Assembly (NCBI GenBank): GCA_963922205.1
Contig: CAWUHX010000135.1
Coordinates: 372,001 to 436,000 of the forward strand
Source of the DNA: Romanomermis culicivorax
Lineage: Eukaryota > Nematoda > Enoplea > Mermithida > Mermithidae
Direction: 5' to 3'
Length of the DNA: 64,000 nucleotides
This document shows positions 13,764 through 49,443 of the stretch, piece by piece. The position numbers were made by a program, and so were the translations under genes. The notes beneath the pieces are model-generated. The model saw only the letters and a list, made by a program, of their open reading frames with translations. It made no database searches and was not told the DNA's origin. Every line of letters starts with the position of its first letter. Position 1 is the stretch's first letter.

Positions 13764-14746
13764 CACTGTTTTTTTCCACGAACTTCTTTCCACAAATGTG
13801 GAAAGGGGTCAAATTTTTTTCCACATGTGGAAAAAATTTTTTTTCGTCTTGAAATCCCCGTTTTCTCGCTTAAAATGCTCACGAACGCTTTATCGCACTG
13901 TTTTTGAGCTTTTTCAAGCCTGTGTTTTTATAGATCAAAATTGAAGAAAAAATTGAAATGTTCGACTTTATAGCCTAATCTACAAGCGTTGTTGAACAAA
14001 TTTTCTAGCAAACTATCCAAGAGCATAATGGATTTGAATTACACGAGAAATCGGTGGTCAAGTCTTCTATGAATTGATGACAAGTGAAAGTCCCAGAAAG
14101 ATGGTAGTCTTTCTGGGTATATTGACATTCTGGGATGCTGGAAAATCAATTTTCCGAACATTTATTTCAAGAATTAGATTCCAATTTTGTGTTCGAAAGT
14201 CCTAATTTCTAGAATTTCACTTGAAAAATTTTGAAATCTGTAATTTATTTGTAAACTCTCATGAACTTGGTCGAAAATATATGAGTAAGAAGAGTACAAA
14301 TTTCCGAAAGATATTTCCGTGAAGCTTTCGAATTGATTTTACGTTAGCAAAAAGCATAGAGACTTGACGTATTGATCTTTCTCAAAAGGAAAAAAATGCG
14401 AATCTTCATTAAATATTATTATGATAAAATATTGAAGATTACCAATTAAAACATGAAATAATACGTTTAAAATGATGAAAACTATTATAGATTAAGTGAT
14501 AAATGAAGGTAGACATGATAAGAGCCGCGCCTCAGCTACTTAATAAATAGTGATGATTATTAAAGTTATAACCGGCGCGAAGCGCCGGAAAATTTTGGGA
14601 TTTGGACATCCTAAAATGCACCAAAATGCATCTTTTCAATATGAAAACCCCAAATTTTTCTTCCACATTTGTGGAAAGACCTCATAAATTTTTTCCACAT
14701 TCCAGATTTTTTTCCACATTATAGTGCAAATGTGGAAAAAACAGTG
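13764..14746 (+). mobile_element. hAT-like element F1 (CACTGTTTTTTTCCAC), motif type CCACA
   Basis: 983 bp, CACTG...CAGTG ends, perfect 8-bp duplication CTTCGCGC (13756-13763 and 14747-14754), inserted inside the GC hairpin of G2. Subterminal regions repeat CCACA/TGTGG about ten times. Right hairpin at 14573-14590. Homologous to F2 at 47061-49443. Confidence 0.85.
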
Positions 14747-14772
14747 CTTCGCGCCGGCCTTGGTTTATAATC

Positions 14773-14990
14773 CATACCTGTACTTGGAGGTGGGGGGGGG
14801 GGGGTTGGGGGGAGACCCCCCCCCCCCAACTTGGCCAACCATATACCCAACCCCCCCCCCCCAGTTTGGAAAAAATTAAAAAAATTTGCAAAAAAGTGAA
14901 TGTTTTTTGGGAAAAATTTCGACTTTTTTCGACCCTCTCCCCCCAAATTTCGGATTTACCCCCCCACTGGTCAGACCTCTTACAGATATG
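14773..14990 (+). mobile_element. G/C-run MITE, family E
   Basis: 218 bp, CATACCTG start and CAGATATG end, flanked by TTATAATC and GTATAATC. Contains long G and C tracts, ACTTGGCCAACCATATACCC, AAATTTGCAAAAAAGTG and AAATTTCGGATTTACC. Non-coding. Confidence 0.75.
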
Positions 14991-15335
14991 GTATAATCTT
15001 GACTATTTTCTATCAGGCGCAGCCGTTAGCATATCTACTTCGACTTACTAATTAATGCAGGACAATTTCTATCAATCAAGTTAGCTCGTTTCATTTTCTA
15101 ATCGTTGACAGTCAATTATGTCGCCCAAAATTGAGATTTTTCATCAATTCTCTCAATTTTTTCTCTCGATGCTTGGAATTTTGTAAACGTTTGTAACCTG
15201 AACTTTTGCGTTTATTGAAGATGGAAATTGAAGACATCATTCCAGACTGCAATTTTAGAACTTCTGTTCACGAATATCTGTTGGAGAGATTTATTTTCCA
15301 GCGTTTCAGAATATAAAAACCCGAAAATTTGCGAA

Positions 15336-16420
15336 AAATGCGGAACAAATTACACTTCATCATATTATCTCTCGAAGTTGTGGTATGCATCCATTTTTTG
15401 TAAGGTCTCACCAGGTTTCGTAAAAAACGTTGAACGATCTTCTGCAAGTTTCATTTGGGCAACATCTAGCCGAAGGAGTTTTGTTGCAATTAAAACGTTA
15501 AAACTACCAGTAGAATTGGGAGGCATAAATCGTACTGATGTTCCTGCGAAAATTGAAGCCATGAGCTTGATGCTTTTATTTAGATACAGAAGGTTGAAAA
15601 TGACAGACATGCAAATTTTTGAATACTTTTATGAAAAAGTTAGGAATGCTTCTAAAAGGCGATTGAACACACTAAATGTTCCAGAATTGTACAAAAAAAT
15701 TAGATTAGCAGAAATTAAAACTGGTCTCAGATAGTTTGAATAAAGTAACCACAAAACTGTTGTATTTTTGTATTGAAAATTGAAATCTGACCAATGAAAA
15801 GCCAATGTCCTATTGGGTAATAAATTTAAATGAAAGTTTATTGGATATAAATAAACTTTTAAGCTTATCAAGGTGCAAATTTTTGGATGGTGGTACAAGA
15901 AATCTTCATTTTGCAATTGTACATCGGTTACTTCTAACTAGATCCAAAATTAATCATATGAATAACTACCAAGATCCAAACTGTAAATTTTGTATATCAC
16001 AAAATGAGTCCTGTAGAGAAGATGTTTCGCACGCAATAGTCTTATGTCCAAGATTGATAGATTTTTGGGTAAAGATTGTACAACTGTTGAAAAAAATTTA
16101 TAAAAATTCCAATGCAGATATACTCAATTTTGTCTTTGGTTTGAAACTAGATTCTTGTAGTAAGGAACAACTGACTTTTGCCAATATTTTCTTATATACA
16201 TGGCACAAAATTGTATATGGCTGACGAGACAACGGTATGAAAAGAATGATAGCTTAGTAGATATTTGGGAGTTGTTTAGGAAAAATATGCAAAAAACTGT
16301 GCGTCGACTTTTTGAAATCATGGACCAAAAAGCTTTTGAGAATTACTTTTTGAAGCATAAGATTGTCAAAATTAGTAAGCTTGATAAACCTGTGATTAAT
16401 TTTTGAATTAAGAACCTTAT
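15336..16420 (+). pseudogene. 5'-truncated LINE (L1/Tx1-like) reverse transcriptase C-terminus
   Basis: Frames to 15734, 15805-16224 and on to 16405 together give the post-RT region: YYLSKLWYASIF, FVKNVERSSASFIW, LPVELGGINRTDVPAK, then a CX2CX12HX4C knuckle (CKFC ... H-AIVL-C) and DFWVKI. Frameshifts and stops separate them. It interrupts the G2 element and is a different LINE from the one in G1. Confidence 0.8.
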
Positions 16421-17088
16421 TTTCCTTACTATATATTTTTCAATTCATATAAAATGTGTTTTATTTTTCGTTCGTTAATCATTATTTAAAAATCAGGTCG
16501 TACTTATTTAATTGCATAATATCGTTTCCGGCGTAAATTATTTTTTAGGTCGTCTTAAAGTTGATTTTTGTGCATGCTTTATTTTGCTCTTTCAGGACAA
16601 AAAGTCGTCGAGAAAAAAAATCATCAGTCTGATTTTAACTTATTTCCCAGCGTTATGAAGGTTCATTTTCCAGCGTTTTAGAAAGTTAAAATCTAAAAAA
16701 ATTTCCGACGCTCTGCACCGGACCAATAACTAAATAAAATTAGATTATTCTAATTGGAACCACAGAAATGTTAATAGCGGATAAATTCACGAGAACTCTA
16801 TCGTTAACATGTTTTATCCGCTCCCGTAAAACACCAATACATTCTTCATGAGCTCATTTTGACTAACATAACCAGAGTTTTCTCAATTTTTTCCTCATTT
16901 TTGCAAGTTTCTGACTACAAATACAACAAAATGCTTGGGTATGCTCCTAAAATGCATGAAAATGCATCCGTAGCCACATTATAAGCGCTTTTAAATATGT
17001 GGAAAATTTTTGGAAAATGAGGGAAAAAATTTTGGGTCCGGTTCTCATGTGGAAAAAATTTTCGAGGAAAAAAAACGGTGGCCGCCAC

Positions 17089-17313
17089 ATTGTATGTTTG
17101 TGAAGTGTACTCCGTATTCTTTGATTTCGTTTGATTAGTGTGTATAGGCCGAATTTCAATGTTCCGGTTAGAATAGTTCAACGGAGAAAATGGCATTAAC
17201 CACATTTAACGGCGACAATAATGACAAAGAGCTGGAATTCAAATGTCGTCGATGTAAGTCTTACTCCTACAACCAGTGTTTTTTTGTGCTCGGACATCTG
17301 TGATAATTGGCAC
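17089..17313. other. No feature recognised
   Basis: Spacer between G2 and repeat J1; short AT-rich sequence, no frame of note. Confidence 0.4.
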
Positions 17314-17674
17314 AAGAGGCAGGCCCGTATTTAGAGGAGGAAGGGGAGGGGAATTCACCTCTAAATTTTTTTACATTTTTTCGGTATTTTCCAAAATCCG
17401 CGCCATATACGATTAAACTGATTATCATAAATGTTAGATTAAACGTAAATCATAAATTTTAGAATAAAATTTTCAGGAATATTATTGTACTTATACATCA
17501 CAATTCTCAAATTAAATTATATTTACATACTTTTCGTCAAACATAGAATTTAGCCACTACTGAAAATAAGTCGTCTTTACTGCAAAAATAATTTTCTTTA
17601 TTCAGTAAATTCTGAAAATTTTTTGGAAAATCCCCCCTTTTTTAAAATTCCTGGGTACGGATATGACAGGAGGT
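17314..17674 (+). repeat. Repeat family J, copy 1
   Basis: Starts CAGGCCCGTATTTAGAGG and ends near GGTACGGATATGACAGG. Internal landmarks (TCGTCAAACATAGAA, TTAGCCACTA, GCAAAAATAATTTTC) recur reversed at 32530-32815. Confidence 0.65.
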
Positions 17675-17689
17675 CAAAAGAATTTTTGT

Positions 17690-18185
17690 CAATGGCACAC
17701 AAAGTTTTTTTCTACTAGAAACATACTGAAAACTGCGGAAAGGTCATAGGTCAGGTCAAAAGTTTGATAAAAATATAACCTCATTGAAGCTACGTTTAAC
17801 GCATTAATTTTTTGTAAAAATCGTGCCCAACTTTTTTTTCAGCCAACTATGTCAGTGAGATAAGAAAAAACTCTGCCGGAAAATGGTTTACATACGACTC
17901 AAAAAAATTGAAATAATTTTTCAAGAATTTCATATTAATTCAACTACGAATCACTTTTTCAGGGTGTCAAGCAAACCTGAGAAACCTGGAAAAGTCAGGG
18001 AATTTTGCCTACGATTCTTGGGATTAGTTGATTTTTGTTGGTTTTTTAAATTTATTTTTCGCAGCCCGAAATTTGATTTCTGTGCAAAAAAAGCCTGATT
18101 CGTAGCCGAAAATTGAATTAAAATATGAAGCTCCTGAGCAATTCTATAGAGTTATTTAAATTCTCGCAGCACTCCATACCTGTAA
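17690..18185 (-). repeat. Partial copy of element C with an embedded short repeat
   Basis: 17740-17860 and 18090-18180 match the reverse of 30000-30190 of element C (CGTTTAACGCATTAATTTTT, CGTGCCCAACTT). A segment near 17955-18050 (AGGGTGTCAAGC ... CTGGAAAAGTCAGGGAATT) also recurs near 23245-23306. Confidence 0.5.
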
Positions 18186-18850
18186 TTGTTGGGGGTGGTG
18201 TTGAGGTGGACACCCACCCACAGTGGCGGACCCAGAAATTTTTTCGGGGGGGGGGGGGGGAAGTTTTGGGGACGGTTTTAAAAATTGGTTTTTTGCCTCA
18301 AAAACCATGCCTACTGTGATAAAAACGTTGTTTTTCGACATTTCTCGACGTATAATTTCTGGCTCAAAATTAAGTATTTCTCCAAAAAAAATTCAAACAT
18401 TTTCCAAATTTACCTGTAGGTAGAGAAAAAAATCGTATTTCAAAATTTTCGGGAGGGGGGTGTGAATCAGACAAAGTCAACATCGTCAAACGTTTCTGAG
18501 CTTTTTCAAATAAGTTTGACGGCAGTATCTAACTAATCGCGCTGTCGTTTAGCCAAAAAGTATATTTTTAGCTAAACCGCGTGGCTGTATAGTGAAATTG
18601 GCCAAATTGCCGCCCGGCTGTTAATCAAAAATATATATTTTTGGCTAAAAAGCTGCGCGACTGCGACGAATTCAGTTGAGTGAACAGTTCTTTCTGTCCA
18701 AAAATTAAGAAAAGGCACGAGTCCATCAATTACACAACGAAGCATGCTTACAGTTTTTTTTGCTGGAGGCAAACGAAATTGGGGTAGTCATTTGTACATG
18801 TACAAACGAAAATAGTATTAAATTTTATCAACGCATGCTAGTATTTTGTA
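18186..18850. other. G-rich repeat debris, no gene
   Basis: Includes an E-like half end (ATACCTGTAATTG), a GTGGCGGACCCAGAAA tract with 15 G in a row near 18246, and two near-inverse AGCCAAAAA(G/T)TATATTTTT runs at 18550-18650. Confidence 0.45.
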
Positions 18851-18854
18851 GAGA

Positions 18855-20640
18855 TGTTTCGGGTACCCGGACCCGAAATTACCCGGCCATTTTGTTGGGC
18901 CCGGATCCGGACGCTATATTCTCAAAATTTTGGACCCGGACCCGGTATTCTTATAATTTTGGACCCGGACTAGAGCTTCACACGACAAAAATTTCGTACC
19001 CGGGTACCTGTTTATTCATTACCCGGGTACCCGAATTACCCGGGTATACTGTAATGTTAATGTACATATATAATATTAGACAGATACACTGTGAAAATAG
19101 AATGATGCATTACACACACTCCGTAGTCTCTACTACATAATATTTTTCAACACTTGTGTTGAAACACTGGTTGTGTTGTTGTATACAATAGGCTGCATAG
19201 GTAGGTATATTGCGAATATAATGCTAGAGATGATGATTGATACACATCATCGACGCACCTACGCTGCAAAATACTACACATCACATCACGATAGCTCAAT
19301 ATTATTGACGAGACAAAGCAAAATTTGCACACCTCCAGGGTTTTTTTTTGACCTACGAGTCACAAGCCAAGTGGCTTGTTGACCTTAAATTTTACAAGCC
19401 ATTCCAAATTTTTGCAAGCCAATTTTATAATATCAGTATACGTGAATAAATTCCAATGCTAGGTTATTTTTTAAAGAAATGTTATATTGAGCACCACGGC
19501 AATCGATCAAAAAAGAGATGTCATTCAACATTTATTCAATAACATTTTAGAGCCGTTAATTCATTAAAATTCAGGAAGCGTTTGAAATTTTTGTGTTTGA
19601 TCGAAGTCTAATCTGCAAGCATTGTGGAAAAAATTTTTCAGCAGACTATCCAAGAACATAATGACTTTGAATTACATGAGAAATCGACGGTTAAGTCGTC
19701 TATGATGACAAGTGAGAGCCCAAAAAAGCTATTAATCTTTCCTGCCTGAAACGCCGGAAAATTTTTTTGGGTATTGACATTCTGCGATACTGGAAAATCA
19801 GTTTTCCAACCACTTGTTTGAAGAATTAGTTTCGAATTTTCTGTTCAAAGGTCATAATTTCTGGAATTTCATGTTTGAAAAATTTTAAAATCATCAATAT
19901 ATTCACACACTGTAGTGAACTTGGACAAATAGATATGAGCAAGAAGAGTAGAAGTTTCCGAAAACTACTTCCATGAATCTTTTGGATTGATTTTACGTTG
20001 AGAAAGGAATAATCACTTCAAAAAGTTTACAGACTTGACGTACCTATTGATCTTTCTCAAAAAATGTGTCAAGGGAAAAATATGAATCTTTATTAAATAT
20101 CAAAATGAAATATTGAAGATTACCAATTAAAACATGAGATAATACGTTTAAAATGATTAAAACTATTGAAGATTAAATGATAAATGAAGGTAGACATGTT
20201 AGAAGCAGCGCCTGAGCTAGGAAATAAATAATAATGCTTTTTTAAGTTATAACCGGCGCGAAGAGCCGGAAAATTTTGTGATTAGGACCTTTTAAAATGC
20301 ACCAAAATGCATCTTTTCTGTATCCGATATGATCAAACACATGACTCAAAAAATTCTGACAAGCCATTTTTGCTTGTTGGACTAAAATTCTACAAGCCAT
20401 TTTGTCAGTCCAACAAGCCATGGCTTATAAAAGGCTAGAAAAACTATGCATAGACCTCTACTTTCAAGTCTATATATTATACGTGATACAAAACGGGTAC
20501 CCGAATTACCCGGGTATACCCGGGTACCCGCGAGTACCCGGGTAATGGTTTTCCTTTTGTACCCGGGTAATTCGGGTACCCGGTGTGAAGCTCTAACCCG
20601 GACTCGACGAAATTGTCAGAATTCTAATTCGGGTCTGATG
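18855..20640. mobile_element. Foldback element with GGGTACCC arrays, holding nested repeats
   Basis: Left arm 18855-19055 and inverted right arm 20495-20640 are built of overlapping GGGTACCCGG / ACCCGGGTA units and share AGAGCTTCACAC. Inside, CAAGCCA-rich edges at 19335-19430 and 20345-20432 enclose an F-family relic. Confidence 0.65.
19545..20330 (+). mobile_element. F-family relic (F3), ends lost
   Basis: Parallels F1/F2 from CCGTTAATTCATTAAAATTC through ATGACAAGTGAGAG, GATATGAGCAAGAAGAG, AAACATGAGATAATACGTT, to a hairpin CCGGCGCGAAGAGCCGG near 20252. The CACTG ends are missing. Confidence 0.65.
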
Positions 20641-21094
20641 TATAACATAGTAATTCAGCTGAAAACAAATACCCATGTTAAAGCATGTGATGACACATCA
20701 ATTAACTGATGAAATATAATAAGTAACAAATCAACGCTTAATTGTTTAGAGCATCTTGAGACTGACTTAGATTTAAAATGTACAGCATCCAAGTTATATT
20801 TCATAAGTAGTTTTTCGGCCGTTTTCCTTGTAGTCGTCGTCTTTTCAATCTTGATTTTTATTTATAACATTAATCTTAGAATCAAAAATTAAATTATAGA
20901 GATGCTTACTCACTAATATTTCACGAGAGATTAGTGACTCGAATCGGTTTATTGTGTCTCAATCAAACCGTAGGATTTCAATATGATGTTGTTTCTCCCA
21001 CATCCATTTTGAGATGCAGTTGTGAGAAGTTCGAATATGAATATGATAAGTTGAAAATGAATCGTATATTGTATGGTTTTACATACTGCGTTTG
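20641..21094. other. No feature recognised
   Basis: AT-rich sequence with no convincing frame or matched repeat. Confidence 0.4.
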
Positions 21095-21880
21095 AAAATT
21101 TTTTTCTGATGTTGCACTTTTCACGTTCTACACTTTTTAGAGTGTCCAAAAGTAGGCGGAAAAAAGCCGAAAAAGTCATTTGGAACTCTTTCCGGACACC
21201 TTACCATAGGATGCCGCAGAATATTTTCATCATTTTTGTAGGGACTAATGTCCGACAAATTATGTTAAGATTTCAACACGAGTTGTGTGCCGTTTTTTGA
21301 GTTGTTGCGATTGGTACACATTGCACTGCCATTCAATTATATTTTTGAATCCAAATGAATTCCCAACCGAAAAGTTCTGAGAAAACAGGATTTGCCATCA
21401 CCTATATAATAAATAAGAAAAAAATGTGGCTTCAAAGCTAGATAAATTTTGATTCATCTAGCTTTGATATTTGCTGAACGACATGCTTCAAATGAAAAGT
21501 CAAAAAAACTTAAATTTTTTTATTAAAGTTGAGATTGAGCCATTCTGACGTTTCTTTACAGGAAAACGCGAGAGTTATCCCAATGAACGTTTTTAATGTT
21601 TCCTGCATCTCGTTGATGGCATATTTAATGGCAGCAAACAGCATTTTTGTACCAATTTTCAAGATGTGCAGACATCTACAGCTCCCAAAAAGGTATAGAA
21701 ACCTGATTTAAATTTTAACACAATGTCTTGGGCACTAGTGACTATAGAACTAGAGGAAAAATTCCGTGGCATCTTATAAGAGGGTGCCAAAAAAGCTTCA
21801 AATGACTCGTTTAGGTTTTTTGGACTACATTTTTGACACTTAAGAGAGTAAAATGTCAGCAAATTTCTTTCACGCCTATT
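21095..21880. mobile_element. Foldback repeat, decayed arms
   Basis: 21095-21330 and 21620-21880 are imperfect inverted copies: AGTCATTTGGAACTCTTTCC versus the reverse of a run reading AGTCATTTGAAGCTTTTTTG; both continue through an AGTGTC(C/A)AAAA stretch. The 149-residue minus-strand frame at 21659-22108 spans one arm and is not judged a gene. Confidence 0.5.
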
Positions 21881-22029
21881 GCACACAATCAACGTTTGAA
21901 GATTTATATTTCCAAACAGGCATAGTGATTGAAGAATGCCAAAAAGTGTAGGACTTCCAACTTTTGCAGTGCTGTAAGTATGCGAATTTTGTTTTTCTGC
22001 CGAATATATGCTGTCACAATATTCAGCAT

Positions 22030-22449
22030 ATAAAAAAAATTTCTTGTCGTTGTGGAGGTTCATTTTCCAGCGTTTTGGGAAGTGAAAATCCGAAAATGTT
22101 CCCGGCACTCTCTGCCAGACTAAGAAATGAATAAAAATGGATAATTCTAATACTAACTACAGAAATTTTAATAGCGGATAAATTCAGGAGAACTCTATCG
22201 TTGAAATATTTTCTGCTTCTGTTGAACGCCAATACATTACTCTTCAGCTCAATTTGAGTGACCTGACTAGAATTTTCTCAATTTTTTCCTCATTTTTGTA
22301 GGTTACTGATTTCGGAAACATCAGAATGCTTTGGCCTGTGGCCACATTATAAACGTTTTTAGAAATGTGGAAAATTTTTGGAAAATGAGGAAAGAAATTT
22401 GGGGTTCGGTTGTCATGTGGAAAAAACGCCCAGGAAAAAAACGGTGGCT
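22030..22449 (-). mobile_element. G-family fragment (G3)
   Basis: Ends ...AAAAAAACGGTG; shares TTAATAGCGGATAAATTCA, CAATTTTTTCCTCATTTTTG and AATGTGGAAAATTTTTGG with G1 and G2, reversed. The far half is missing. Supports absence of the LINE in the ancestral G element. Confidence 0.7.
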
Positions 22450-22717
22450 TGAAGCATCATGATCAATCAAATAAAGCGCACCCTAAAGCTGTCGAAAATC
22501 GAAAACTTATACCATAGAAGAACACAGATTACTTAATTTATATATATTTTTGCTATGTACAAATTGTACAAATGAACTATTGGCTGCCGTTTATACGTGT
22601 GCAAATAAGTCATGTTCAAAAAAATGAAAAAAAATATTTTCCTTCACAACAATTGAAAAAAGTGTTGTGAAAATTTTTTAAAATCAACTTAATAAAATTT
22701 TGTCACGATCATGTGTG
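22450..22717. other. No feature recognised
   Basis: Short AT-rich spacer. Confidence 0.35.
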
Positions 22718-22725
22718 CTTTATAC

Positions 22726-23137
22726 CATACATGTGTAACGGAGCCCCGAGGTCTGATGAGGGGGCCGTCGGGCGTCTTTTTTTGGGCCGGGGGTCAGTAA
22801 TTCCCACAATTTTGGGGGAGATGTCTCTCAAGGAATAAAAACCGATTTTCTTCATAAAAAAAGTCCGAAAAATAGTTCAAAAAATTGTAATTTTTTCCTA
22901 AAAAGACCGAAAGAATGCATTCATGGCGTGGAGCGCCCAGAAAATTCACGTTTTCGACCATTTTTTGTTCAAAAATTGACATTTTTCTGACCAAAAGTAT
23001 GGGGGTTCCTACGGCTACCATATGGCTAGCTATAGGATTGGAAAATCCTGGGGGCTGTCGCCCAATGGCTAGCCATATGGTCGACGATTTCCGGGGGGGG
23101 TTCCCATAGCAGTTCCCCCCCCAATTATACATGTATG
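22726..23137 (+). mobile_element. hAT-like MITE, family D, copy 1
   Basis: 412 bp, CATACATGTGTAACGG to ATACATGTATG, with perfect 8-bp duplication CTTTATAC (22718-22725 and 23138-23145). Contains two inverse copies of ACCATATGGCTAGC(T/C)AT and a degenerate GC hairpin near 22923. Confidence 0.82.
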
Positions 23138-23306
23138 CTTTATACATGTCTATTGTCTCCGGTACATATGTCTTTTACAATTTTATGTGGGAATTACTGT
23201 TAGTTTTCATTCTGAAAAAAACCTGGAAATTTCTGGGGAATTGACCTGGAAAACCTGGAAAAGTCAGGGAATTTCATGTTGGGAAACTACTTGATACCCT
23301 GGTTTT

Positions 23307-23922
23307 TTTCGCACAGACCCTTTCGCCATATGGCGAAAGAGGTCAAAATTTTTTTCGCTATTTTCTCCATATCGTTTTTTCGCGTTAAAATGCCACTATA
23401 ATCTATATTTATTCATTTTTGAGCTTTTCTGAACATATTTATGCTTTTGCTGTCAGTAAATTATCAAAAATGGAGAAAGAACAAAAATTTTCGATTTTTG
23501 GGCAGGTTAACAAAAAACCAGATCGAGGAAAACACAAAGTGCATACAAGTTTGACGGCTGACATATCTGTGCTTAGCCAAAATGAAGAATCATAGACTGC
23601 ATATGAATCATTCTTTCTTCCGACGCGAGCACTGCAAAATTTTCGTATCCCGTTACTCTAGAACGTTGGAGGATGAACCTTTCCAGACTGATTTCGTGAT
23701 TTAAAATTCGATTTTTCCGGCCTAATGATATTCATGCTTGAACGACCTGCAGATGTTTTCAACCTAACCTGCTAACCAGATGAAAAATCAGCTTGAAGTG
23801 AACGATGTTTCATAAATTTTGGCGGAACAACAAAGTTCGTAAATTGACGAAAGAGCCCAAAGTTTTTCGCATTTCCAGATTTTTTCGCCAAGAACACCGA
23901 TTTGGCGAAAAAGACAGTGCTA
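23307..23922 (+). mobile_element. F-like element M, motif type CGCCA
   Basis: Same scaffold as F1/F2 but the repeated motif is TTTCGCC/GGCGAAA: GTTTTTTTCGCACAG, CCCTTTCGCCATATGGCGAA, GAGGTCAAAATTTTTTTCGC at left; TTTTTCGCCAAGAACACCG and GGCGAAAAAGACAGTG at right. The target duplication is not clear, so ends are approximate. Confidence 0.68.
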
Positions 23923-23936
23923 CGAATATCTATTAA

Positions 23937-24110
23937 AAAGGTCCCCAAGGTCAAATGCTTCAGGTTGGGGTAAATTTGAGAATTTTCGGGGGTAGTATAG
24001 CTAAATGTCCACTAAACACGTCATTTTGTCTCAAAATTAGGCAACCAGTGATCAATTTTAAGGACTTAGATAGGGGTAATACTCCACTCATACCCCTTCC
24101 CAAGAGGTTG
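23937..24110 (+). repeat. Repeat family I, partial copy
   Basis: AGGTCCCCAAGGTCAAA, GGGGTAAATTTGAGAATTTT and GGGGTAGTA recall 5575-5630. Confidence 0.5.
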
Positions 24111-24132
24111 TCTATTATATATGTATATATAT

Positions 24133-24580
24133 ATAAACAATGTAAAGACTGTCGAAAATTGTTTAAATGTTTGGTCGAAACATTGTACCAACGATATCGA
24201 TTTTTCTATTTGAATCAATCAAACACAAAAAGTAAGAATCTCAGTTTTAAATCTGAATTTGGCTTTAATAAACAGAGAATATTCCGAATTTCTTCTCATT
24301 AATCATTCATTGACGGCATATACAGTTTGCTGCGACGATACTAATACAATGTTCGAAGAGAACTCGTTCGTGTTCTGGTCATACTAGGTAATATTATATT
24401 TATTGACTCGGCGCCCGAAGAATTTTCGCATTTCCAGCACCTAAAACGTCTAAAAATTATGGAAATTTAGTGTTTGACCAGCCAAAAGTTTAGTGCCAGT
24501 TACAACAAACGCTCAAAATTCGTTGCGTCATTCCAAATTTTTATGCACAAAAAACCATGTTTTGGCACAAAAAAACACTG
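24133..24580 (-). mobile_element. Element C half-copy (C2), motif type GTGCC
   Basis: Right tip GGCACAAAAAAACACTG; colinear, reversed, with 29508-29950 of element C, including the AATTTTCG/GGCGCC-like hairpin relic near 24410 and CTAAAACGTCTAAAAATTA. The other end is truncated at an AT microsatellite (24110-24140). Confidence 0.65.
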
Positions 24581-24639
24581 CCTACAACGATCAAAAAACC
24601 ACGATCCTTTGAAACAACCACTCTGCCAGCTGCATCATT

Positions 24640-25770: not shown

Positions 25771-25779
25771 TACCTTTTT

Positions 25780-26190: not shown

Positions 26191-26191
26191 T

Positions 26192-26365: not shown

Positions 26366-26419
26366 TGTATGTATGCGCGTAATACAAGCAAAAATACTGT
26401 GCATGGTCAAAAATTCATA

Positions 26420-29300: not shown

Positions 29301-29507
29301 TACCTGGCTGCAACCTTTTTTTGCACACAGCAACCTAATTTCGGGCTGTGCAAGTGCAACCAATTTTTTTCTGCCAAGTTGCACAGTGCAACTAGGCCTG
29401 ACTGCCCTTTTATTAGGTTATAGGCTTTTCTGTCTGGATATGCATTTTTATGCGTTCTAAAATAGAAAAAAGTGAAAATTTTGCGGCGCTTCGCGCCGGG
29501 TTTCCAT

Positions 29508-30304
29508 CAGTGTTTTTTTGTGCCAAAACATGGTTTTTGGCACAAAAAAATTTGGAATGGCACAAAAAATTTTAAGCGTTTGTGCTAATTGACACAAATT
29601 TTTTGGCTGGTCAAACATTAAATTTCTTTGATTTTTAGACGTTTTAGGGGCTGAAAATGCAAAAATTTTTCGGCGCTTCGCGCCGAATCAATGAATATAA
29701 TATTTCTTATTCGTATATTTGACCCGAACGCAAACGATTTCTCTTCGAACAATGTATTAGTATCGTTGCAGCAAACTTTATAGGCTGTCAAGACTGATGA
29801 GTGAAAAGAAATTCTGAATATTCTCTTTTCATTCAGTCAGATTCGGATTTAAAACTAAAATTCTTTTTGTGTTTGATTGATACAATAAGGAAAGTCGATA
29901 TCGTTGATCCTCTACTTTATTTTCTCTAGTCTTTACATGGTTGTTTGTTAAATAAACATAGATATTCGTTCGTAGTCGAAAATTGAATCAATTTGAAGTT
30001 CCTGAACAATTCTAGAGCTATTTAAATTGTCTCAGCATTCCATTTCTTTTTGGGATTTCGTGAACTATTTTGTTGCACAGTTTTTTCTTTTCTCACTGAC
30101 ATGGTTAGCTGAAAAATAAGTTGGGCACGATTTTTACAAAAAATTAATGCGTTAAACGCTAACTTTTTATCAAACTTTTGGCCTAAAACTTTTCCACAGT
30201 TTTCATTATGTATGTAGAAAGAAAAAATTTTTTGTGCCATTGGCACAAATTTTTTTGGCCCCTTGTGCCAATTGGCACAAATGTCCGTGCACTAAAAAAC
30301 GCTG
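29508..30304 (+). mobile_element. hAT-like element C (CAGTGTTTTTTTGTGCC)
   Basis: 797 bp, flanked by GTTTCCAT (29500-29507) and GTTTCAAT (30305-30312). Subterminal regions are full of GTGCC/GGCAC motifs. Hairpin CGGCGCTTCGCGCCG near 29670. The sister arm (near 32050) keeps the empty site GAGTTTCAATTCAT on its reverse strand. Confidence 0.82.
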
Positions 30305-37300: not shown

Positions 37301-40300
37301 ATGCGAGAAGCCGTTCGCGAAGAATACGATCTTATCATGAATCGAGGTGGTCTTATGGATCTAGCTTGGCTAAGTAAAATCGAAATTCGCGGTCCAGATG
37401 CTGCCAATTTTCTAAACTACGTTTTATCCAATCGACCGCCCGAAGTGTGAAATTATGTTTTCTTCAACAAGTTTTTTTTTGAGTTGCAATTTTCTATAGG
37501 TTAATCGCGTCCAACCGAGTCTCATGTTGACGCCAAATGGTCGAGTTCTATCTTTCGTAAGATGTATTCATCACGATCAAAATCAAAGTGTCTATTTGTT
37601 AGTCGGCAATCCTGATCAGGAAAACAGGAATATGAGGTAAAAAAGCAAATATAAAATGTTTTGGCCTGCCGTTGAAACTCAACTGGATCAGTTGGACTAG
37701 GAGTTGTGCTGGACTTTCGGTTTTCTATTTTAATTCTCATTTGGGTATTGAAAAAAATCGATTTTTTCGTTCTCAAAATTACTCTTGCTCGGTTAGAGGC
37801 TAAATCACTCTAGATGAACACTTCCATTGGCGTTTTTTGCATGATTTCAACTTTTAACAGAAAAAAATCTCGACAAAAAAGTTTCTTAGTGATTTCCACA
37901 CGCCGTTGATAGACATTGCACTTGAATTGTAAATTTTTCGTTCGCTTTTTATGAGGTTTCGCAAAAACACGGACTTCATCTGTTATTTACGCAAAAATTC
38001 TGCTGAATATTTCTCAGTTTTACTCGCTTTTATAGATGGCTCTTATCGGTTGCTCAGGAAAAACATTATAAAATCGAAATCAATAACGTGACGGAATATT
38101 TAGCTGTGATTGGCACCGGTGGTCCGCATAGTCGATCGACCCTGAGCGAATTGACAAAAGAAAATTTGGATGATAGCATATTTCCTCACATGTCCACAAA
38201 ATTGCTAAGAATAGCGGGGGTTCCGGTTATTGGTTGTCGAATGGCGGAATCCGGTACTATTTTAACAATTTTTTGTTTTGGTAGATATGTAATGTCTTGC
38301 AGATTTTTCTGTGCGTTGCGTGAAAAATCACCAAAGTTTTGAAAAATTTCTCCAATTTCTATCTTTATAGGTGAAAATGGTTGGCAATTATATCATAATC
38401 GAGCCGACAGTTTAAGGATCTATGAAGCCTTGATGAAAGCAGGTCGTTCCCACGGATTTAAACCGATAGGTTGGGAAGCTTTGAACGTCCTAAGATTGGA
38501 GAAAGGCTACAAACGCTGGGGAGTCGAGGTAGTTGCCTACTGTTACAGCTTTTCTTGAATCATTTTTAACGCCCAAGTCAGAAAATTCCAAAATTTCAAT
38601 TCTGAAATTCTTAAATTTTTCTTCTATGAGAAGAAAACAATTGACTTGTATTGTCAAGCCCTTCACTTTCGGTTAAAATTCGGTCAAACATTAGCGATAA
38701 TTGATTTTTTCTAATTCTTGATTTTTCAGCTCAATCTCGATACGCATCCTTACGAAGCGGGTATCGAAGATATGATCGACTTGTCCAAAGTATGTATTTT
38801 CGTTTTGAATTTTTCATTTTTCTCATATAAATTTTGACATCGGATAAATTTCTCTTTTCTAGGGCGGATTCATTGGATATGAAGCGATGCTTAAATTGAA
38901 GAATCAACCCTTGAATAAAAAGCTTGTGCTATTAACGATAGACGGCGACTTACCTGTCGATTACAAATTCGGACACGAAAAAATCGACGTAGATGGAAAA
39001 GTACGAATATACCTTAATTGAATCTTTGTCAACTTTCGTCCATGAATATCATTTGTTAGCGGCTTCATTAAGTTGATCTTTGTTTTTCTTTTTTTAGACT
39101 GTTGGTCGTATTACCTCGGGGTGTTTTAGTTTCGCAATTAACAAGTATTTATGCTTTGGCTTCGTTCAACCTCATCTAAAAGCTAATGATGTGGTAAGCT
39201 ATAAAAAATCATTCCTAGGATTTATACATTTTCGACATGTTTCTTGAATTAGAACCAGGCTTTTTTGAGCCAAATTGAAATTTTGGAAGCCAAAATTTTT
39301 TGATTGAAGGATATCGAAAAATGGGCTTTTGAGACACTATGGAACGTATATATAATTAAATTATATGAATATTCAATCAGTTGATACGTGTTCAAAAAAT
39401 TAGTGTTCACATTTTGATTTTCAATCAGCGTTTTTCAGTTACAGGCTTCTTTCTACATGTTCAAAGATCGACTAAAAAATCTTTGTACAAAGAGAATTTT
39501 TCGTGCAAGAAACAAGATATTTCGCTTAATTTTGCTAAAACCTTCTTTCAGGATAGCACTTTAGTTCATTTCCTTCTGACACAAAAGTATAGGGTTTTAA
39601 AAATGCAGCTTCTGTTCTTATTGTTTTCGTGTTTTCTATATCTTTTCTGCGCCACGCAGTGAATATTTTTAAGATTTTGACACACGAAAATGCTTTAAAA
39701 TATATCATTTTACAAATTAAAAAATGTGTTCATATTTTCATAAGTTTGAAAAATTCAAATGAAACTTGAAATTTATAAAAAATCACCTCCAATCTGATTA
39801 TGAATTCTAACTCGGCTCCATATTTAAAATAATAGTTATAAAAAATGGAAAATTAAGATTTTGATCTCTTAAATGCGCCGAAATTCATCTTTATCTTGTA
39901 GAGCCCCCATATTTTTCCCTTTTTCGAAAATTTTCTTCCCCAGAAAGTCTGATTTGTAGAAAAACAGTGAATAGACTAATCCGAAAAATTACAGAATGAA
40001 ATCCGGCGCGAAGCCCCGAAAAATTTCCGGTGTTTGATGATTTTAGAGCTTGTGAAACACTAACTTCAAATCTAAAATTATATAAAAATAACTATAATTC
40101 GCTAAAATAAAATAGTAATAAATAAGTCGAAATTTTAGGAGCCAAAATGGCTCCTAGACCTAAACTTTAGGAGTCATTTCCAAATTTTTAGTGGCCCAGC
40201 CCCTTAGAATGACTAAAAAAAGCCTGGTCAGAACCTTTTTCTTCTTTTTTTGTCATGATTTTACCTGATTTCTGCTGTTCACAGTCAGAAAAATTGACTA

Positions 40301-40472
40301 TTGTTGAATTTTCAATATATGAATTTCATGCGTCGTGCATTTTAATTTATGTATTGATTTGTTTTGTGATTTATCGTTATGTACTTTTTAGCTCAATGTT
40401 GAAGTTGTTGGTCAAAAATATGAAGCGGTCATTTTGGAAAAGCCGCCAATCAAGCCTTACTACGAAAGATGA
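34387..40472 (+). CDS. DMGDH: Dimethylglycine dehydrogenase-type FAD/folate enzyme, mitochondrial
   Basis: Oxidatively demethylates dimethylglycine to sarcosine in choline catabolism, using covalent FAD and tetrahydrofolate. Exons: 34387-34603, 34659-34757, 34822-34980, 35175-35382, 35712-35871, 36173-36255, 36427-36625, 36680-36799, 36962-37116, 37269-37444, 37500-37636, 38036-38253, 38371-38528, 38730-38789, 38863-39000, 39098-39193 and 40392-40472, about 820 residues, all phases consistent. Seen: an Arg/Ser-rich leader, the Rossmann motif VLGGGAVGTSITYHLAKNG, the flavin-linking His context SGSTAHTPGL, DAO-fold motifs (YYVRQEE, MSPDCMPMVGP), then the GcvT-type folate domain with GENGWQLYHNRADS. 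The last exon (LNVEVVGQKYEA to stop) follows a 1.2-kb intron holding a transposon at 39256-40226. No in-frame ATG precedes 34387, which follows an acceptor-like AG, so a short first exon is missing. Sarcosine dehydrogenase and PDPR are relatives, but the FGAFETQE and DPNRFDFW stretches fit DMGDH best. Confidence 0.87.
39256..40226 (-). mobile_element. hAT-like element A2 in the last DMGDH intron
   Basis: 971 bp, CAGGCTTTTTT...AAAAAAAGCCTG, flanked by ATTAGAAC and GTCAGAAC (6 of 8 match). Orientation is opposite to A1. Hairpin relic CCGGCGCGAAGCCCCG near 40002. It lies 5' of the final 81-bp exon. Confidence 0.72.
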
Positions 40473-41950
40473 TTATTTTAGTGAGTCATCATTCAAGCGA
40501 CAAATGTCAAAATTATTCTCAAATCAGGTAGAACTAAAACATATATCAGGCTTTCTTGACTGACGATTTAATAATTGTAAGACACGCGTTGTTTTTACAA
40601 CTGAAAAATTGAAAAGATGTCTTCACAGCTTTTGCTTTATAATCTTATAATGATTTGAAGTTACAGTGTATCAGAGACTTGTATACGTCTATAATATTTA
40701 ATTGATTTTTCATTTTTCAGGATTCGTCTAGAAAATGTTGTTTTAGGTAACAATTTTATTTGTTTTGGAGTATGTAGTCTGACAACTGATGGATTTATAA
40801 ATCTTCTATTGTTCTCAATCCGAAAATTCTATATTTGTCGATAACAAAAATGTTCGTGCTGATTTTTGGAAGCGTGACAATTGTGCAAATTCTGTTGTAC
40901 ACACTGCCATTTTATTTTTAGAATACGATCGTCTAATTGCGTTATTAACATAATCTAGTAGTCAGGTAAGTTAATTTTTCACGTTTTCTGTTTTTTAATT
41001 TATGAGGATGATTAGAATCCAAATTTCTGCTGTTCACAGTCAGAAAAGTACATTTGCTGATCAAAATTATTATGATTTCTGTGCTATACTCTTTCGTTCC
41101 TGAGCTTCATAATTTCTTTTGCTTCTAGAATCGACTTTTTTCAGAATTTGCTGTAAATATCGTTGGAAAATATTTGTTTCAAGTATGCAATTTTTGATGC
41201 AGATTAGCACTGATTTTCTGTTTTCGCCATTCCCATAATTGATTTTTATTTTTTCAGAATGTGCACGATTTATTGGTGAATGTTCAGTTCAAAGTGAGAT
41301 TCTTGTATTGCTTTGTCAATTTTGCTGACAAGAATTGCGAAAATTCTTAGTAACCTCAATTGGATTTTGAGGTCTCGGAAAAAATCTAAAATTTTTCTTG
41401 GAATTTTCGAGAATGACGACGGAGCTTCGATATGTTGCAAAATAACTTGTTTATCTATGATTAACTGTTTTAGCTTAATATTCATTCCCGATAGTCCGTT
41501 CAGTCTTGAAAATGATCTGAAACTTCTGCTTCATGTTTCTTTCTTCTTTAGATGGTGATCTACGCACGTGGCATGTAATCCAGTGGTTAAAAGTATAAGA
41601 ATATTATTAATTGATTTTTCCGTTACGTAATATAGTTCACATTATTACGATTTCTAAGTTATTTAATCAGAAGTTGACTTTATTTTATCGTCGGCAACGA
41701 AGATGAAAATACGAATCGTGCTTTACAAGTTTGCATTTTTCAGTTGGCATGTTAATATACATGTTTCATTAATATTGTGTTAATAGCGTTTTTAATTCTC
41801 CCAGGGTAGATTCATCGAGTTAATAAATCATCTGTTATAGATCCGTGTTTTTTCTTTTACTCCGTTACAAACCGATTCTCTACAAATATGATTAATTAAA
41901 TAGAAGTTTTATGAACATATTTGTTTTCTTCTAGGTATTTTGAAGATTTT
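40473..41950. other. DMGDH-SREK1IP1 intergenic region
   Basis: AT-rich; two GCTGTTCACAGTCAGAAAA runs at 40274 and 41028 are direct repeats. No exon recognised. Confidence 0.4.
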
Positions 41951-43698
<1,748 letters not shown>

Positions 43699-43995
43699 TA
43701 TTACGTGTATTATTTTGTAAGTTTTTATATCTTCAAGTGATGATTTCTTCCATAAAATATCATTTCGTGTCACTCTTCAGGCAAACCTAATTGAAAAATT
43801 GGGTAATGAAGTTAAATTAATAATTATGAGTAATTAGTAACATTCGATTATCCAAGCTAACTTTTCCCTCTTTTATGCTGTTTTGATTTCTCAAAATCGT
43901 ATGTAAATTTTGCTTGAGGTTGTGTCTGAATTTGAACATAACAGTTCGGTAGAAATTTGAAAAAAACAAATAATTGAATTTTGCATCAAGTAACT
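43699..43995. other. SREK1IP1 3' flank
   Basis: No canonical AATAAA close to the stop; an ATAAAATA run near 43755 could serve. No repeat recognised. Confidence 0.4.
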
Positions 43996-44244
43996 TATAG
44001 TCTGTTTTCCATGAAATGCTTCTAAATAATGAAAGTGGAAAGCAAGTAGTATTTCAGATTTTTACGATTTTCTGACAAACAATATATCAGAGAGGAATGA
44101 AAATTTGTGAGTATACTGTCCTAACTTTTAACAATTTTTCCAGTGAAAAATTTTACAATAAGATCTCTATGTACGTGATTTTGACGACGGTACTGATTTG
44201 TGTCACTTTTCTATTTAGAAGCATTTTATAAAAAACAGACTATA
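43996..44244. mobile_element. MITE K1 with 33-bp inverted ends (TATAGTCTGTTTT)
   Basis: 249 bp with ends matching at about 30 of 33 positions (TATAGTCTGTTTT ... GCTTCTAAATA and its reverse). A second copy from about 44985 to 46730 carries a piggyBac-type MITE and a mariner; this copy gives the empty sites. Confidence 0.75.
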
Positions 44245-44249
44245 GGAAG

Positions 44250-44984
44250 CATTTTTAGAATGAGCAGCTTGTTTGTTATTGCATATTCGATTTGAAATGG
44301 TAGACCCATCAAAAACCAAAAAAAAAGATTCAATTTTATACGCATATTTTCACTTAGAGGAAATTTTTATACTGTAAAAATACGCTAAATTTCCTCATGA
44401 GAATGGGAAAATCCAAAGTACCGAAGAGCATGCTTCTCCACTGTCGACTTGGACGGATCTGCATCGATACATCGGTGCTCCTACAAGTTTTTATCACACC
44501 AATTTATTGAAAAAAATTTTCGGCTTTTCTATTTGCCGCTCACTAAAGAAAAAATTCGTTCATTAATTACAGTAATTAATTTATTAGCCTTTTCTGCATT
44601 AATTTCATGACGTCGCTGTATCGATCATTTCAAAATGAATGGAGTATTGATATTAATTTCAATTTTTTTCCGTTGCACAGAGAAAAATTTCCGAGTCGAT
44701 AGAAAACATGCTGGGGATTGCAAAGAAATTCGTGAAATTTTCAGGGGGTTTCTTCAATAATGATGTGAAATGGGCCAGTAAATGCAAACTAATTCATTTG
44801 AATCTGTGGCAGAGATAATATATTCGCATATTGCGGAAATTTCTATTTGAACTTGTTCCCCTAACTGCTACGGTCAACTAGAGAAAAAAGGCTCTGTGTA
44901 CGCAGGTTGTTTACTTTTCGCACCAGAAGCTAGACAGTGCCACACGCTATCAGAATAAATTTTAATTCTCCAAATACCTGCTCT
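44250..44984. other. No feature recognised
   Basis: AT-rich sequence between K copies; no convincing frame. Confidence 0.4.
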
Positions 44985-45112
44985 GCTTTTCATAGCTTCT
45001 AAATAATGAAAGCCGAAAGCAAGTAGTATTTCAGATTTCCATGATTTGCTGATAAACAATATATCATACAAGACTGTAAATTTATTAGCATACTGGAAAA
45101 TGTTACAGTTAA

Positions 45113-45408
45113 GGCCCTGCTATACTTCGACAGCTGGCGCCAGCCGTCACTATTAGAAGTATAGCAGCTCATAGCCGGCGCCGGTTTCGAGCTGCTACAC
45201 TTCGCCTTTTTGATGACGGCCGGCGCTGGTTGTCATTCGATTCATTAGAAATTTCTGAACTGTCGCGTATGTTATAACATATGAATTATGGTGCAACCAA
45301 TGCATTTTGGTGTTTTATCATTTTTTGTAGGCCAGTGCCGGTTTAAATATATTTCATCCGGCGCCGTTCAGCCCCGACTGGCGCCGGCCATCGAAGTATA
45401 GCAGGGCC
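45113..45408. mobile_element. piggyBac-type MITE (TTAA duplication)
   Basis: 296 bp beginning GGCCCTGCTATACTTCGA with an exact inverse at the right end, flanked by TTAA at 45109-45112 and 45409-45412. GC-rich inner repeats (GGCGCCGG). Absent at the same site of K1. Confidence 0.85.
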
Positions 45409-45464
45409 TTAAGAGCTCCATGTAAACGACTTTGACGACGGTACTGATTTGTGTCACTTTTCTA

Positions 45465-46694
45465 TACCCCTGGCAAGAAAGTAATGTCGAAAATTAGACT
45501 ACATTTTCAAAGTTTTATTACATTTGCTTGAGGCATGATTAATCATCAAAATAATGCCCCATTACTATCAATCACACTTTACCATCTCGCAGGTAGCTTT
45601 GCGATGCCTGCATAATAAAAGGCTTGTGACTTTGAATCATAACAGTCTGGATGAACGCGAAATGGCCATATTGTTTTCAAATTCCATATCAACAATGCTA
45701 TTCTGCGATGACTGGAACAAATAATAATCTGATGGTGCAATATCTGGTGAATATGGTGGATGGAGAAACAACTCCCAATTTAACTCCTGGATTTTTGCCT
45801 GGACGACAGCGGTGGTATGTCGACGGGCATTGTCATGGAGCAGAAGTACTCCTTTGCAGTTTACCAATGCAGGCTGCCTTTTAATCAAGGCATTTTGTGC
45901 ACGATCAAGCCGGTCTTAATAGACTTTAGCAGTGATTGTCAAACCAGGTCGAAGCAACTCAAAGTGGATGATTCCCTAGGTTGACCACCATACACATAAC
46001 ATGGCTTTGTGTGGGTGTAGATCAGGCATTGGCACTTGTGCTTGTTTAGAGCCTTTGCTGACCCCTTGTCATCTCTGGATGATCTTAACATCCACAACCC
46101 ACATTTCATCTCCAGTGATGATTCGGTCAGGAAACTGTCGATATGATACTGTGAAAGCAATAACATGAAATCATAACATGCTGTTGCATAGTGTGATCAC
46201 TCAACTTGTGAGGCACCCATGTTTGGAGCTTTCTAACCTTGTTCAACTGCTTCATTGTGTGAGTAGCGAGGACTTATGCTGATTGCTAATGGTTGCTTTT
46301 GTATCGAGGCCCAGCTGTTCTTGAATGCGTGCTTCTGATACTTCCCCTGGCCATCCACTATTACTACTGTGGGTGCCAATCCTGAACTTTGCAAACCACT
46401 GTTCGACTGCATATCCAGACACTGCAGGTTCACCATATGCTTACCATGTTTCCTGTTGCTTCAGGCGCAGGTCTGCAAAATTCAATGATGTATATGGTCG
46501 AGGAGGTAACATTTTGTTTTACGTATCAAAAAATGGACAGTATGAGCACTGAAAACCGACCCTATTTTTCAAAACAATAATGTTTGCTCTCCCAAACAAA
46601 CAATCAACAACCCAATTTATTGGGCAGGATTTTGAGGAAAAAGTTGATTGATAACACATGACCAAAAATCGACATTACTTTCTTGCCAACCCAA
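45465..46694 (-). mobile_element. Mariner transposon relic, transposase broken
   Basis: 1230 bp, inverted ends around TTGGCAAGAAAGTAATGTCGA, TA duplication at 45463-45464 and 46695-46696. Minus-strand fragments: an N-terminal HTH-like piece (46233-46436), ESSLEMKCGLW..., and HDNARRH with YSPDIAPSDYYLF. Spacing between the last two catalytic Asp is D34D, as in mariner. Frameshifts and stops make it inactive. Absent from K1. Confidence 0.9.
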
Positions 46695-46730
46695 TATTTA
46701 GAAGCATTTTATAAAAAACACACTATAGGT

Positions 46731-47060
46731 ACTGGATATTTCTACGACTTTCTGTTGGGCAACCATGTGACATAAGGCTAACTTCTTCAAAATTGAAAAA
46801 AATTGTGTAAGCGATTTCAATGACCATGATATTTTATCACTCGGACTTACAAAGATTTTATGAAAAACAGACTATAAATATCGCTGCTATCTAGTATTCA
46901 TAAGGATTAGTATGTTATGTACCAGGCGTGTGGTTTCACTTCGCATCTTTGATTAATTTGAAATTCGATCCGCAAGGCTCTACTGTTGTTTGGATGGCAG
47001 CGTAGAGTGCTCTATATTCTGTTTAACTGAACACTTATTTGAATAAACCAGCGTGCGGGC
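46731..47060. other. K-like fragment, otherwise empty
   Basis: 46840-46885 ends GATTTTATGAAAAACAGACTATA, a worn K end. Nothing else seen. Confidence 0.4.
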
Positions 47061-49443
47061 CACTGTTTTTTTTCCCCCGGGCCTTTTCCCCAAATGGGGA
47101 AAGGGGTCAAAATTTTTTTCCCCATTTTCCCGGAGTCGTTTTTTTCGCTTAAAAATGCTCACAGACGCTTTATTTAGGTGTTTTTGAGCCTTTTCAAGCC
47201 TCCTGGTGTTTTTAGACCCGTTAATTCATTAAAATTGAGGAAAAAATTGAAATTTTCGAGTTCAAAATTTAATCTACAAGCATTAGAACAAATTTTCAAG
47301 CAAACTATCCAAAAGCATAATGACTTTGAATTACATGAGAAATCGATGGTTAAGTTCTCTATGATGACAAGTGAGAACCCAAAATGAATGTTAATGTCAG
47401 GGTTGGCAAGGCTTTGGTTTTTTGGTTTTTGGTTTTTTTGGTTTTTTAAAAAAACCAAAAAATTGGAAAATCTCTGGTTTTTTGGTTTTTTTGGTTTTTT
47501 TCCAAAATCATTGGGAAACTGTTTTTTCACATTAGTCGATCTTCTAGGCATGTTTTGGTGTCTATCTAAATCAACAAAACAATTAATCTAGTTGAATTGA
47601 TTTCACTATAAAGTAGAAAAAAGTTGTATTTTTATGCTACATTTTGTACTCAAAAGATGTAATATAAATTATCCTTTGCATCTATCTTGCAAGCACACAT
47701 TTAGTACATGAGTCAATTTTGCTATAATTTGCTCACAAAAAAGTAGATGCTAAATCTTTTGTGGAGTGTACTTCGACCATACGGGGTGACATCCATTGAT
47801 CCATATCATCATCAAAATGTTATAGAATTTGATTGAGTTTAATATCCTGAATCTATTGTTACAGTAACCTTTTTAATTTTCTTAGCTCGAAATTTCAAAA
47901 TATAAATGAGACAATAATAATAAAATTTTATACAGATCAGTTAAGCATACTGTAGGTTGACAAAGAGAAGAGCTTCTGAGTGGCTCATTTTTATGTGACT
48001 TGATGTTGCTGCTAAGTAGAAAAAGTCTTACAAAAATATGTATCTATCATGCAAACGAGAATAATAATAAGACCCATTTGCTGTAGTTGTAGCTCGCAGA
48101 CAGGTTTCAAAAGCAAAAATTTGGAAACATCTGAAATGTCTATGTGTGACCTTCAACTGCAGTTTGTAATATTAATAACATATGTAATAATCTATCAATT
48201 CAAAACCATCTTATCGAAAACGGTATATACTTAAAAATTGTGTCATTTCAACTTTTCTGTGCATATGTGATGCATATGCATTGATACAATTCTGTAGTTG
48301 ATTTCTTTTGAGTTTTGATTACGTACATTGTGTATTGTATATTTCTCTTTACTTGTAATTTTTCTTTTTTTTCTTGAATTTACCCCTTACATATCGCATG
48401 CTCTGTTCCATTTTTACTTTTCTTATGTTCTTCATTCATGGTTCCTCTCTTGTGTGCCCACTATTACTGTATTTCTATTGCTATAATAGGGATTTCCTAT
48501 AGCATAAAATAATGACACTTCCGATAAGATTAATACTTCTAGCTGCCATTTTAAGGCTCCCTAACTAGTCTTAGATGATACAGGGAGCTTCCAGCAGTTT
48601 TTTTTCATAGTTATTTTGATGTATCTAACATTCTAAAGAAATAAACCAGAAAAAAACCACTAAAAAACCATAGAAAAACCAAAAAAACCATTAAAAAACC
48701 ACTAAAAAACCAAAAAACCAAAAAGTCGAAATTTCAAAAGTTTGGTTTTTGCCAACCCTGGTTAATGTTTCCGGCGCGTAGCGCCGGAAAAATTTTTTGG
48801 TTATTGATATTCTGCGACGTTGGAAAATCAATTTTCCGAACATTTATTTCAAGAATTAGATTTGAATTTTGTGTTTAAAAGTCGTAATTTCTAGAGAATT
48901 TTACCTAAAAAATTTTAAAACCAGTATAATTTATTTGTAAACTCTCATACTTGGTCGAAAATATATGAGTAAGCAGAGTATAAATTTCCGAAAGACATTT
49001 CCAAGAAGCGTTTGAATTGATTTTACGTTAGAAAAGAAATAATCGCATCAAAAAGCTTAGAGACTTGACGTATTGATCTTTCTCAAAAGGAAAAAATGTG
49101 AATCTTCATTAAATATCATGATAAAATATTGAAGATGACCAATTAAAACATGAGATAATACGTTCAAGATGATGAAAACTATTATAGATTATATGATAAA
49201 TGAAGGTAGACGTGCTAAAAGCCGCGCCTGAGCTAAGTAACGCATAATAATGATTATTAAAGTTAATCGGCGCGAAGCGCCGGAAAATTTTGAGATTATG
49301 ACCTTCTAAAATGCACCAAAATGCATCTTTTCTGTAACCGATCCCCAAAATTTTCTTCCCCAAATGGGGAAAGAGCCCAAAATTTTTTTCCCCTTTCCGA
49401 ATTTTTTTTCCCGAAAAAGCACGATTTGGGGAAAAAAAACAGT
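47061..49443 (+). mobile_element. hAT-like element F2 (CACTGTTTTTTTTCCCC), motif type CCCCA, split by B1
   Basis: Flanked by GTGCGGGC (47053-47060) and GTGCGGGA (49444-49451). Without the 1.37-kb insertion it is about 1.01 kb and colinear with F1, but CCACA/TGTGG positions read CCCCA/TGGGG. Hairpins CCGGCGCGTAGCGCCGG at 48772 and TCGGCGCGAAGCGCCGG at 49267. Confidence 0.82.
47398..48760 (+). mobile_element. hAT non-autonomous element B1 (CAGGGTTGGCAA)
   Basis: 1363 bp with perfect 12-bp inverted ends CAGGGTTGGCAA / TTGCCAACCCTG and perfect 8-bp duplication GTTAATGT (47390-47397 and 48761-48768). Edges are packed with GGTTTTTT/AAAAAACC runs. No transposase. Its right half recurs at 6060-7289. 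Confidence 0.92.

Follow-up and report, generated by a model that had tools for sequence, protein, structure and literature searches.

The window analysed here is a stretch of 64,000 nucleotides on contig C135 of the Romanomermis culicivorax genome (359 Mb in 595 contigs). When nine of its reading frames were compared with Pfam, only aldehyde dehydrogenase, JmjC and GCV_T (the last just below the cut-off) were matched, and these look like eukaryotic host genes. The remaining features discussed below are repeated elements (Table 1). F1, F2, M and G1 have a common end scaffold in which certain places, called slots here, hold a short motif specific to the family. No long reading frame was seen in F1. 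G1 contains a reading frame at 11,968–12,444 that has no Pfam match and presumably resembles the tail of a non-LTR retrotransposon protein.

Table 1. Repeated elements of the window, with their ends, motif slots and flanks (window coordinates)
Feature	Coordinates	Strand	Ends and slots	Flanks	Remarks
F1	13,764–14,746	+	CACTG..CAGTG; CCACA slots at both ends	CTTCGCGC, 8/8	Without genes
F2	47,061–49,443	+	CCCCA slots at both ends		F1-type core; interrupted by an inserted element
Insert in F2	47,398–48,760		CAGGGTTGGC..GCCAACCCTG; A-run + CCA repeats	GTTAATGT, 8/8	Read by eye
F3	19,336–20,448	+	CAAGCCA slots at both ends	8-bp target duplication ambiguous	F core
G1	11,700–13,266	+	CACCG..CGGTG; left slots CCTCG, CCACA, CCTCA, CCACA; right slots CCTCA	CTAAGCAT, 8/8	Related ends
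M	23,297–23,919	+	CGCCA-type slots at both ends		Left terminus decayed
C	29,508–30,304	+	GTGCC(A) slots at both ends	7/8	Scaffold loosely F2-like
Partial C relative	24,189–24,580	-			82% identity
Partial G-type right end	13,597–13,764	-	Third slot CTACA		Adjoins F1; 88% identity to that of G1

The termini of these elements read CACTG, CACCG, CAGTG or CAGGG. A blind scan of the window for T-run ends bordered by matching 8-bp sequences picked out F1, G1 and C and nothing else. The target duplication of F2 was read by eye as 7/8, provided that the last base of F2 is counted in the duplication too, and none was seen for M. F2 owes its length to the other element sitting inside it; without this insert it measures about 1,012 bp, against 983 bp for F1. 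The two align at 84% identity over 14,110–14,713 and 48,793–49,408, and at 73% in their left part. The preliminary description of this DNA had overlooked F3, a third copy of the F core. It had placed M at 23,307–23,922: the slots at both its ends were found, the right limit was moved to 23,919, and the left terminus is degenerate. C had been named as a looser case of the scaffold, and its alignment to F2 is only loose. The insert in F2 is possibly another motif variant; a hAT gene family elsewhere in the genome has ends CAAGGCTGG with A-run + CCTA repeats (L150, L154, L157–L159).

Palindromic pairs of motifs between T and A runs occur 16 times in the window, compared with 0 to 3 times in 20 first-order shuffles; nine of the 16 lie within F1, F2, M, G1 or C and seven outside. 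In the genome, the scaffold word GGTCAAAATTTTTTT has 539 matches, against 14 for its reversed control, and among 30 of these loci that were fetched, eight were judged by eye to be unrelated repeats. The scaffold that had been proposed for F1, F2, M and G1 stands, with the slots confirmed and the F1 and F2 cores alignable at the identity given above.

hAT elements typically duplicate 8 bp of their target and carry short terminal repeats of the CAGNG type. The elements described here have 8-bp duplications (8/8 for F1 and G1, 7/8 for C) and a repeated subterminal motif. Their ends depart from CAGNG in having C at the third position of CACTG and CACCG. They also have the features of MITEs, being about 1 kb long, without genes, bounded by terminal inverted repeats and abundant, as seen from the number of core anchors reported below. 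The elements are likely non-autonomous hAT elements. The Herves transposase, a member of this superfamily, binds a short subterminal motif, according to the available part of the report (PMC3143072).

A search for hAT dimerisation domains yielded 150 scored matches among 1,837 candidates. Of the 150 scored hAT loci, 48 were examined (30 from this domain search, 11 of which were covered by word and palindrome scan only, and 18 other hits), and none of them showed a transposase whose own ends are of the F, G, M or C type. Ends of the F, G, M or C kind do lie near the hAT genes at L060, L061, L065, L072–L074 and L076, where they were read by eye as separate insertions. The P-type transposase domain PF21787 had no match in the genome, nor in the control genomes. 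Several hAT genes are followed by a repeated motif of their own, such as GGATCC, GGATATCC, GAGTCC or AAAAAACCTA. Moreover, hAT genes with TAGGGATG-like ends (L053–L082, L143–L162) show differing motifs in similar places (GGATCC, GGATATCC, GGTTCC, GGGTTC, GAGTCC). This variety of motifs downstream of hAT genes may be the same turnover in transposase-bearing elements.

For the comparison of F1 with F2, majority end sequences were derived, those of F1 resting on 21 copies and those of F2 on 10 left ends and 16 right ends; the F2 ends were chosen by motif, so these sequences show the typical slots of each family. Every one of the nine aligned slots shows the same difference in the third base of the motif (A to C, or T to G), compared with 22 of the 149 other end columns that differ (4/58 on the left, 18/91 on the right; Fisher 1.5e-7, the slots having been picked after the sequence was seen). 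One extra F1 slot without an F2 counterpart was left out of this comparison; the F1 left end has an additional reversed slot and an insertion relative to F2. On the core side of the left end, 14 of 114 columns differ. Non-slot divergence being similar to this core-side divergence, it seems that the ends were inherited along with the core, their slots being re-coded on the way. Between M and F2 the second motif base is changed at eight of nine places versus 17 of 149 other columns; the ninth place, a CCC, is probably not a slot.

Within families, a word scan that detects motif-like words only counted CCACA 171 times in the 21 F1 copies (20 fetched as the best matches to F1), CCTCA and CCGCA once each and CCCCA not at all. 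A pattern left open at three left slots of F1 and F2 has 1,233 matches in the genome and none for the reversed control. In 100 matches listed of the 1,233, the triplet was all A in 77, all C in 20 and had one odd base in three, with A and C mixed in none. The matches listed, here and for G below, are the first in contig order with zero mismatch, so that younger copies are favoured. Among 35 of the retrieved copies, this triplet consisted of A alone in 21 and of C alone in 13, and one copy was odd; L001 and L002 were excluded from the scoring of flanks and triplets because they repeat other loci, L001 duplicating the G1 copy of the window. The scaffold-word loci, the junctions described below, the 100 listed triplets and the G slots were counted by eye, the last two twice.

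F1 and F2 are sister families, each clean in its motif. That the motif marks the family was borne out. The claim that slots change together agrees with the comparisons of F1 and M with F2, but it is not a general rule, as shown below. As no mixed A/C copy was present among the 100 listed, the steps of an in-place change were not witnessed for F1 and F2.

The same core is found with other ends. A 20-base anchor in the F core, beside the right end, has 9,052 matches in the genome at up to two mismatches, compared with two for the reversed control. Forty copies were sampled, these being the first 42 listed exact anchors on contigs C1 and C2 minus two already in hand. Their right ends belong to the sets CCACA (17), CCCCA (9), CAAGCCA (8), TTTGCAC (4) and TCTGCAC (2). 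Flanks matching at 7 or 8 of 8 positions were seen for 6/17, 4/9, 3/8 (one in poly-G) and 2/2 copies of the CCACA, CCCCA, CAAGCCA and TCTGCAC sets, respectively; in the four sampled TTTGCAC copies no duplication was seen. The end sets cluster on a tree built from 43 cores, in which long rows with inserts cause some disturbance: 8 changes are needed, compared with 22.1 for shuffled labels. CAAGCCA forms a single clade; CCACA and CCCCA require four changes each and are not single clades. This one core occurs with at least five end sets, and which motif set an element carries depends on its family. The CAAGCCA relatives of F3 among the sampled copies are L089, L092, L093, L103, L107, L117, L121 and L122, and the left body of F3 has 832 matches in the genome.

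For the two TGCAC sets we were able to trace the origin of the ends. Their left end comprises about 84 bp of TGCAC-tagged sequence terminating in CCTGTTAC; in several copies an older left end of the form CACTG..CCCC comes next. A genome search with the junction word GTTTTCTCCTGTTAC gave 398 matches, and its control gave none. Twenty of the 398 junctions were read: eight are empty, nine have a CCCCA-type left end (some with mutated slots) and three have a shortened form. L151 is an intact empty TGCAC-tagged element of 369 bp with flanks of 8/8. The composite L104 agrees with it in 68 of 84 columns on the left and 95 of 105 on the right, and between these L151-like ends an F2 left end begins exactly at CACTG, with 185 of 224 columns matching. 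The composites lie between 8-bp duplications of their own (AGTGGAGC, 8/8, for L099; 7/8 for L104), and they were therefore moved by the outer ends. Of their inner ends, the right one has been lost and the left one is in decay. The genome contains empty, filled and re-transposed forms side by side, and in this one case the switch from CCCCA to TGCAC is the capture, by nesting, of a ready-made pair of ends. F3 has the right junction of the composites, as read by eye, and is therefore probably derived from a composite.

The G family differs from F1 and F2 in mixing motifs. G-type left slots read CCTCG or CCTCA, then CCACA, CCTCA, and finally CCACA (in the window and in L073) or CCTCA (in L041). 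On the right, a pattern open at two neighbouring slots has 1,749 matches in the genome and none for the control. Among 100 matches listed of these 1,749, A occupies slot R4 54 times, T 45 times and G once; slot R3 holds T 99 times and C once. The motif had been described as uniform within a family; strict uniformity in every family is ruled out by the mix of CCTCA and CCACA in G left ends and by the polymorphism of R4. Similarly, mixed motifs within single elements, named previously as the observation that would speak against concerted exchange, are present in G and absent from the F1/F2 left triplets (0/100 listed). We read the G family as a switch in progress, although it may be a stable mixed code and not a transition.

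Taken together, these elements are gene-less cut-and-paste families, probably of hAT type, which switched motif sets in one traced case by nested capture and, as the F1/F2, M and G comparisons suggest, probably also by changing slots in place. Their ends carry roughly 8–10 units, each a T-run with a short motif, and the units face both ways. Each motif is a putative binding site for one kind of transposase; a switch of motif would then be a change of helper enzyme. In the nested route, a CCCCA element inserted right after CCTGTTAC in the 369-bp TGCAC element, and the outer ends then mobilised the composite. In F1/F2, M and G, base changes would have been gained in place, slot by slot, favoured perhaps by a helper whose preference had changed, and would have spread when one copy founded a family. 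We extend this tentatively, as a possibility somewhat short of probable, to competing transposases whose shifting DNA preferences drive the one-by-one re-coding of slots: G would be caught in mid-switch, nesting would be a helper change in a single step, and the core lineage would have serially changed the enzyme that it parasitises.

It is unlikely that F1 and F2 differ by end capture too, both ends having been exchanged by recombination with a related element of another motif. Capture did produce the CCCCA-to-TGCAC switch, the two families differ outside the slots as well (including the extra reversed slot and the insertion in the F1 left end), and the non-slot columns differ more on the right (18/91) than on the left (4/58). 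The pooled non-slot divergence of the ends is nevertheless similar to that of the core side (22/149 versus 14/114), and neither F1 nor F2 shows traces of an older end further inside. We consider it improbable that the reader of the motif is not a transposase but another protein, for instance a host factor or a VANC-like anti-silencing factor encoded by an element. VANC proteins do bind short motifs whose copies vary among related elements, as described in the available part of PMC5735166, but here the slots lie close to the termini and face both ways, and binding to short motifs in subterminal positions is a property of hAT transposases, as the Herves report describes in the part available (PMC3143072). 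More doubtful still, and very improbable in our view, is the mechanism put forward in the preliminary description, in which copying or conversion spreads one motif over all slots together and so creates families. The absence of A/C mixing in the 100 listed F1/F2 copies would fit it, but G slot R4 is polymorphic beside a fixed R3, the G left slots alternate, and one switch is a nested capture. The description of the motif as exchanged in a set holds only in part, and a single concerted event as a general rule is ruled out by the nested capture and the single variable G slot. Finally, it is hardly credible that the shared scaffold is mere T/A-rich convergence: T and A runs are frequent here, C aligns loosely and eight of 30 scaffold-word loci are unrelated, but for F1, F2, F3, M and G this was rejected by the core identity of 84% and by the counts against reversed controls (539/14, 9,052/2 and 1,233/0).

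To our knowledge, the acquisition of a new helper enzyme by gene-less elements is poorly documented. Here, one core can be traced through at least five end sets, and the empty, filled and re-transposed forms of one switch are found in one genome. With the nested switch and the single-slot variation in G, it becomes directly testable how new element families are born and how transposases and their sites co-evolve. The closest parallels known to us are the CMITE families of corals, which are piggyBac-like and insert at TTAA sites (Wang et al. 2010, PMC2872659, as far as its available text goes). In the same text, their interiors are better conserved between families than their ends, and CMITE-IN is a new mobile element formed when one element inserted into another, its likely prototype being an insert-free element. 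Unlike the present elements, the coral CMITEs are without repeated motif slots and without in-place slot change in the part of that paper available (PMC2872659). Beyond them, the three forms found here reveal a change of ends on a conserved core, which may explain families with conserved cores and variable ends, a question left open for corals in that part of the text (PMC2872659).

Like hAT elements with subterminal binding motifs, of which Herves is an example (PMC3143072), and like the hAT genes of this genome, the elements have short terminal repeats and a short motif that differs between families and is repeated near both ends. Their 8-bp duplications also have the length typical of hAT elements. 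Unlike these relatives, they have several motif sets on one core and are known without their enzyme. A further likeness is with the VANDAL elements of Arabidopsis, in which a multi-copy short motif differs among relatives and evolves together in a way that is hard to obtain by simple substitution (PMC5735166, available part). The VANDAL motifs stand in tandem repeats and are read by the anti-silencing protein VANC, according to the same part of that source, whereas the motifs here occupy scattered slots whose positions near the two termini are fixed. We found no paper on slots re-coded in place at both ends of hAT-like elements, or on both routes together, in a search that was weak on subscription journals.

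Some further repeats were noted. Seven of the 20 fetched F1 copies (L004, L009, L012, L013, L017, L018 and L019) have the identical flanks ATCAAAAC on both sides and perhaps lie at one site of an abundant repeat. L029, L045 and L049 contain another element with CCCCA-type ends and a different body, flanked by CTGATCAA on both sides within a larger repeat. The palindrome CCGGCGCGAAGCGCCGG recurs within F, G and C elements and outside them (window positions 12,600–14,600 and 29,480–29,690, and elsewhere).
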